DNA from: Gammaproteobacteria bacterium
Lineage (GTDB): Bacteria > Pseudomonadota > Gammaproteobacteria > Enterobacterales > Kangiellaceae
Assembly (NCBI GenBank): GCA_029880585.1
Contig: JAOUOC010000003.1
Coordinates: forward strand, 1 to 43,758
Direction: 5' to 3'
DNA: 43,758 nucleotides
Shown: positions 11,977 to 13,494 of the stretch, piece after piece
How positions within the stretch are numbered: position 1 is the stretch's first letter
Layout of the letters: each line of letters begins with the position of its first letter
The notes under the pieces: generated by a model
Databases searched by the model: none
What the model was told of the DNA's origin: nothing
The model's input: only the letters and a program-made list of their open reading frames with translations
Made by a program: the position numbers and the translations under genes

Positions 11977-11987
11977 TTGTTTCTATT

Positions 11988-12554
11988 ATGCCAAAGTTGC
12001 AAACCACCTCTCGCCTGTTTTTTGCAATTGACTTACCTGCATCGGTTAAAACTCGTCTGATGGATATTCAACATTCCATTTCCATTGATGAAGCCAGACT
12101 GGTTCAACCTGAAAACTTTCACATCACGCTGAGCTTTCTGGGCAAAGTGTATCAAGATCAAATGGATCAAATTCTCACCCATTTTACCGACTTAGAACTT
12201 GCTCCTTTTGAAGTCAAAACTGATCAATTGATTTTTTGGCCAGGCAGCAAGATTTTGGCTATCGGCATTGATGGCCAACAACAGCAATTACTTGCCTGTA
12301 AAAAACAAATTGAATATCAATTAAGTCAGTTGAACATATTTCAATATGATAAAAAGGATTTTGTGCCACATATCACCTTGTTTAGACAAGTCACACAAAT
12401 TGACAAATTACCCGAACTATCAACAATGAATATTACAGTTGATAGAATCAGCTTGATGGAATCTCGGCCTCATATTAGCAATCAGCAATATCAAACAGTA
12501 GAATCCTGGCGATTAATTAACAAAAGTGTAAAGCAGCAGTTATTGGGGAGATAA
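11988..12554 (+). CDS. thpR: RNA 2',3'-cyclic phosphodiesterase (2'-5' RNA ligase family)
   Basis: ThpR/LigT is a 2H phosphoesterase that opens 2',3'-cyclic phosphates on RNA ends and can join tRNA halves by 2'-5' bonds. Both catalytic HxTx motifs are intact: HITL at about 45-48 and HITL at about 128-131. The opening RLFFAIDLP is the family N-terminal strand. The ORF track starts at TTG 11967 inside ygiF; ATG 11988 fits the family better and gives 188 residues. It follows ygiF by 11 bases and precedes a broken DUF4440 gene by three, so the three form one plus-strand transcription unit. Confidence 0.9.
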   Translation: MPKLQTTSRLFFAIDLPASVKTRLMDIQHSISIDEARLVQPENFHITLSFLGKVYQDQMDQILTHFTDLELAPFEVKTDQLIFWPGSKILAIGIDGQQQQLLACKKQIEYQLSQLNIFQYDKKDFVPHITLFRQVTQIDKLPELSTMNITVDRISLMESRPHISNQQYQTVESWRLINKSVKQQLLGR

Positions 12555-12557
12555 TAA

Positions 12558-12943
12558 ATGGAAAAATTACTCGATACCCTTATTCAATTGGAAAATATTT
12601 AATCAACCCTAAAGTTAGGTCTTCTTATGAAGAATTAGATAAATATCTGTCTGATGATTTCATCGAAATAGCCAGTACCGGTGTTCAGTTTGATAAAGCT
12701 CATGCATTGTCACGAATTCCGCATGAAGTTTCACCTGATTTTTGGCAACAAGATTTTAGTCTTAATAAATTTAAGAATACTCTGGCACAACTCGTTTACA
12801 AAGCCGCAATCAAGCATCCCGATAGCGAAGAAATAAAATACTCTCGCAGAAGTTCAATCTGGCGGTTTAACGGAGATGTCTGGCAAATGATATTTCATCA
12901 GGGCACTCTATGCGAGCCTTTTGAAATTCACTCACCATCATAA
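12558..12943 (+). pseudogene. DUF4440 (NTF2-like) gene disrupted by a -1 frameshift
   Basis: From ATG 12558 the reading runs MEKLLDTLIQLENI and hits TAA after 14 codons. Adding one T to the ATATTTAATC run (about 12597-12604) restores a continuous frame (...LINPKVRSSYEELDKYLSDD...). This joins the ORF-track reading starting at 12707, giving about 129 residues in total. The restored protein matches the DUF4440/NTF2-like layout: early DDFIEIASTG, then SRRSSIWRFNGDVWQMIFHQGT at the end. The rest of the frame is intact, so the lesion is recent or a sequencing error in a short T run. It lies three bases after thpR and its end overlaps the convergent reductase gene by 16 bases. The 78-residue ORF from 12707 is unlikely to be the native product. 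Confidence 0.82.
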
Positions 12944-13494
12944 TATCGGGATTGATGCTCGATATCATATCGAGACTGCACAAAACCACTGGGGTATGAT
13001 TGAGAGCGAGTGAGTTTTAACTTGATATCATGGGAAAACTCGGCAAAAAGCGGAAGCCCCTTATTAATCAAAATAGGAATTTGAGTGATGATCAACTCAT
13101 CCATGACCCCGGCGCGAATAAAAGATTGAATGGTTTTTCCGCCATCAATGTAAATATGCTTGTATCCCCGACTTTGTAGATCAACTACCAACTCCTCAAC
13201 CTTACCGGAAAACAAAGAAATCTTGTCTTCAAAGGCAGAGGGAATCTGTTGCATTTTTTTCGACAGTACAATGACTCGCTTGTCGACATATGGCCACTGT
13301 GCAAAAGAAGCAACTTTTTCAAAAGTATTACGCCCCATTACAATGCAATCCATTGCCCGTAAAAACTTCTGATAACCATAATCTTCTGTGGATTCTTTAT
13401 CAGCACTGGCTTCGAGCCAATCCAGCTTACCATTTTCCCGAGCCAAAAAGCCATCCAGACTAACAGCGCAAAAAGCGATAAATTTGGTATTCAT
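12928..13494 (-). CDS. Dihydrofolate reductase-like (RibD C-terminal domain) family protein
   Basis: The 188-residue single-domain protein has the DHFR/RibD-C fold pattern: an N-terminal strand and loop FCAVSLDGFLA, a central IVMGRNTFEKV, and the NADPH-loop region HIYIDGGKTIQSFI. Strand motif DELIITQIPILINKGLPLF completes the domain. Relatives (YwjB/YyaP type) are NADPH-dependent reductases of unknown substrate; it is not the housekeeping FolA. The ATG at 13494 lies 20 bases after the stop of the OPT transporter gene, so co-transcription with that gene is likely. Its 3' end overlaps the frameshifted DUF4440 gene by 16 bases. Confidence 0.88.
   Translation of the reverse strand: MNTKFIAFCAVSLDGFLARENGKLDWLEASADKESTEDYGYQKFLRAMDCIVMGRNTFEKVASFAQWPYVDKRVIVLSKKMQQIPSAFEDKISLFSGKVEELVVDLQSRGYKHIYIDGGKTIQSFIRAGVMDELIITQIPILINKGLPLFAEFSHDIKLKLTRSQSYPSGFVQSRYDIEHQSRYYDGE

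Follow-up and report, generated by a model that had tools for sequence, protein, structure and literature searches.

The window, by which we mean the whole stretch of DNA analysed (43,758 nucleotides), contains a DUF4440 gene whose reading frame is broken close to its 5′ end, and we consider it likely that this is an accessory gene of that family which was recently inactivated. It is an ordinary case. The gene lies on the forward strand. Its 5′ remnant (12558 to 12602), identified by translation, codon preference and an N-terminal motif kept in relatives, consists of 14 codons (MEKLLDTLIQLENI) followed by a TAA stop at 12600 to 12602, and the sequence at the break is AAT ATT TAA. The body of the gene is found in the -1 frame (12600 to 12943, forward strand, 114 codons, stop at 12943). 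This frame (12557 phase) is open from 5′ of the ATG at 12558 to the TAA at 12941 to 12943, which amounts to more than 140 codons from stop to stop. Its translation reads LINPKVRSSYEELDKYL...SSIWRFNGDVWQMIFHQGT...HSPS, the product also being written LINPKVRSSYEELDKYLSDDFIEI...SSIWRFNGDVWQMIFHQGTLCEPFEIHSPS, and its first ATG, GTG or TTG is the TTG at 12707. A Shine-Dalgarno-like GGGGAG was read from the sequence at 12545 to 12550 (forward strand), within the final codons of thpR and 7 nt 5′ of the ATG at 12558. The coordinates given in a preliminary description were right when re-read from the sequence and its translation, but the downstream start at 12707, described there as ATG, is a TTG codon.

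Both halves of the broken frame belong to one DUF4440 gene. Against the Pfam profile PF14534 (DUF4440, gathering cutoff 25.2 bits), the body frame alone scored 39.5 bits (8.6e-10, profile positions 12-107) and the joined reading scored 43.6 bits across the whole profile (1-107), both passing the cutoff. No single uninterrupted frame runs across the domain; the zero frame ends at 12600 and the domain goes on in the -1 frame. The lesion would be disabling and has in-register homology on both sides, as expected of a recent pseudogene. All splice points at which one frame could pass into the other were then scored against a profile of relatives. Scores were flat at ~101 bits up to codon 7 and rose to 113-114 bits at codons 12-14, and none of 200 shuffled N-termini matched the joined score. 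A second profile avoided circular selection by including only relatives found with the body frame, before joining; with this profile the joined N-terminus lifted the score from 93.3 to 103.4 bits, a value again equalled by 0/200 shuffled N-termini. These splice-point scores place the lesion within about 12594 to 12602 on the forward strand, the best splice falling anywhere from zero-frame codon 12 to the stop, across which the optimum is flat. The A5 tract at 12562 to 12566, like any other position in codons 1-11, was rejected as the site of the break because splices short of codon 12 gave low profile scores.

Of 29 relatives, 28 have the conserved Glu of the N-terminal motif, and in 27 the spacing between Glu and the conserved Arg is 10 residues, as it is in the joined reading. 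The conserved Glu and its spacing therefore indicate that one base is missing net, rather than two being extra. The preliminary description had proposed a T missing from a T run; the net loss of one base holds, but the run is only TTT, and which base was lost is indistinguishable at the protein level. Over 12558 to 12599 codon usage preferred frame 0 (5.6 nats vs 0.7 and -3.1), and over 12600 to 12940 it preferred the -1 frame (15.3 vs -41.6 and -114.8). In Pseudoalteromonas orthologues the segment corresponding to LLDTLIQLENILINPKVRSS of this gene is LFNHLIDAERQLLEPEVRQS, read in a single frame. Moreover, the break is not common to the relatives; where their start is clear, a single frame runs from the N-terminus through the body. 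The DUF4440 body has no further lesions and retains its signature residues. Two earlier claims were thus borne out, namely that a single-base shift near 12600 breaks the gene (by the joined profile score, codon usage and register with relatives) and that the remainder shows no decay (by the open body and the codon bias and signature residues kept).

The explanation we favour is that a variable slot behind thpR gained or kept a small NTF2-like DUF4440 gene, which would probably have been translated together with thpR, via the ribosome-binding site in the thpR end. One base would then have been lost within 12594 to 12602, presumably in the living cell and not through assembly alone. Ribosomes starting at 12558 would now yield a 14-residue peptide ending at 12600. 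No folded DUF4440 domain is expected from the current allele because the body offers ribosomes no usable start ahead of the TTG at 12707, and the product would be non-functional.

Alternatively, the gene may be intact in the organism, with one base dropped from the contig by a sequencing or assembly consensus error. We regard this as possible, though on the unlikely side. The source assembly is a draft of 384 contigs (92% complete), and the body frame is fully open with codon bias and family signature residues kept, as in an intact gene; a total absence of further decay is also how a consensus error would look. However, the break site is TTT and not a long homopolymer, it is interior to the 43.7 kb contig and away from its edge, and the other genes sampled from this assembly showed no frameshift. 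For the latter comparison, some 400 kb of the assembly (the window and about 355 kb from other contigs) was set against roughly 1.2 Mb from a congener; the orthologous genes numbered about 80, with 73 kb aligned, and a frameshift was seen in none of them. Apparent N-terminal truncations among these genes were, where checked, start-site or domain differences. This baseline is strong for interior shifts and would miss many within about 15 codons of gene ends, the zone in which the DUF4440 break itself sits. The absence of frameshifts from about 80 other genes favours a recent real mutation over a consensus error, in that it argues for the former without proving it. No second strain of the same species was found by searches of genome contigs, GTDB r220 and relatives. 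A pattern search in which the halves of the site could be one to five bases apart had no match in GTDB r220 genomes or IMG/VR, DNA of 701 bases searched against 60 relatives matched in just one 50-base patch, and a related-locus search of genome contigs gave no match.

It is very improbable that this allele still gives DUF4440 protein, whether from a non-AUG start or through a -1 shift at AAT-ATT-TAA, where a classical slippery site is lacking. Recoding at this site, by programmed -1 frameshifting or otherwise, would yield a full-length protein of roughly 128 residues; it would be consistent with a body frame lacking visible decay, and the required shift (-1) is in a direction open to ribosomes. 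However, inspection of the zero frame ahead of the stop found no X-XXY-YYZ slippery heptamer. There is no conserved recoding site, since relatives whose start is clear need no change of frame between N-terminus and body, and the conserved heptamer that characterises programmed -1 frameshifts is lacking here. With no heptamer, and with those relatives unshifted, programmed recoding is hardly credible.

It is similarly implausible, and strongly so, that the gene is intact and starts in the body frame at a non-canonical ATT (12566) or at the TTG at 12707. The body frame is indeed open from stop to stop, and in a related gene of a congener (L004) the conserved N-terminus is likewise not preceded by ATG, GTG or TTG. 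However, the upstream residues of the body frame (ITRYPYSIGKY) bring no gain on the family profile, where the zero-frame residues give 10 to 13 bits, and the ribosome-binding site is positioned for the ATG at 12558, not for the ATT at 12566. A start at the TTG was rejected, as the resulting fragment covers only profile positions 66-107 and scores 17.3 bits, below the cutoff, with over half of the domain gone. The preliminary description had named related intact proteins truly starting at 12707 as what would refute it; against this, in almost every relative examined the conserved N-terminus lies upstream of that point.

Of the three causes first proposed, very recent mutation (favoured) and assembly error stand, but a phase-variable switch by homopolymer slippage near the start is exceedingly improbable: the lesion is at the 5′ end of the gene, a frequent place for phase-variable tracts, and an A5 tract lies at 12562 to 12566, yet the break tract of three Ts is too short, A/T runs of this order are ubiquitous in the window (1366 of three bases, 558 of four and 237 of five), and the long homopolymer or tandem repeat expected at the switch of a contingency gene is absent.

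The gene is flanked on its upstream side by an intact thpR (11985 to 12554, forward strand), encoding a 2′-5′ RNA ligase/LigT-like protein (Pfam PF02834), and downstream by an intact, convergent gene for a RibD C-terminal/DHFR-like reductase (12928 to 13494, reverse strand, Pfam PF01872), the 3′ end of which shares 16 bp with that of the DUF4440 frame. Scanning the window for Rfam families and tRNAs gave none. Whilst thpR is conserved in most other genomes of the genus and many of the family, what lies between thpR and the RibD-like gene varies, and here the slot holds DUF4440 (12555 to 12927). The order of the block is kept in a congener, running from an SH3-type protein through a CYTH/CHAD protein, thpR, the slot and the RibD-like gene to an OPT transporter, where the SH3-type, CYTH/CHAD and OPT names are those we presume from the appearance of the sequences. 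An M28 peptidase lies behind thpR in four congeners, with the RibD-like gene next in three of them, and in three genomes of another genus the slot is almost empty (roughly 20-90 bases). DUF4440 was found behind thpR in none of 19 thpR loci of relatives, about 1.5 kb of flank having been examined for each, which speaks for its being dispensable, as does the in-frame stop in a congener's copy (see below). The family is patchy: 61 related genomes included 8 that carry it, and a class sample of 369 included 21. An accessory gene so scattered is likely to fall to early gene loss. The host genome (2.93 Mb, 92% complete) is much below the 3.8-7.0 Mb of its congeners, and with a genome so much smaller, gene loss in this lineage would be unsurprising. 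If the base loss is real, the locus offers a snapshot of the very early loss of a small accessory gene from a variable slot in an otherwise conserved block. An annotation pipeline would give either a 78-residue stub from the TTG at 12707 or a pseudogene mark, and the break has little significance beyond annotation.

DUF4440 belongs to the NTF2-like clan (PMC8853679; PMC3924330). The C-terminal end of the present gene carries the S-[IL]-W...FHQGT signature, as in its relatives in PF14534, but its frame is broken after codon 14 and no intact member is encoded as assembled. The closest relatives found were DUF4440 proteins from Pseudoalteromonas plasmids or chromids (e.g. WP_062567970.1), with up to 49% identity over body-frame residues 13-124 and the same N-terminal register. 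In contrast to the present gene, theirs are intact and sit beside a sensor histidine kinase and a response regulator, not between thpR and a RibD-like gene. In loci L155-L158 the DUF4440 gene directly precedes this pair, suggesting a possible functional link. A search of the gene product against NCBIfam gave no family, a PDB sequence search gave no significant match (the best being 3ksp, E 0.11), and the literature on DUF4440 gives no function for the present lineage.

Two congener genes (L003 and L004) are of the same family, with 38-42% identity, but are located elsewhere, beside a gene that we take to be of DUF523 type, and are not positional orthologues. The one in congener G001 (L004:1495-1923, reverse strand) has no ATG, GTG or TTG before the conserved N-terminus, so its start codon is either a rare one or has been lost. 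In another congener, G004, the DUF4440 gene (L009:1456-1830, forward strand) has an in-frame TAA just before the conserved RFHQGT motif; it is the second copy in the genus to be broken. In a class-level relative (G165), a DUF4440 frame near a contig end (L018 around 170-510) has neither a start codon nor the conserved N-terminal motif. Finally, an unannotated DUF4440 homologue was observed in a Pseudomonas phage record (OQ658365.1:33010-33330).
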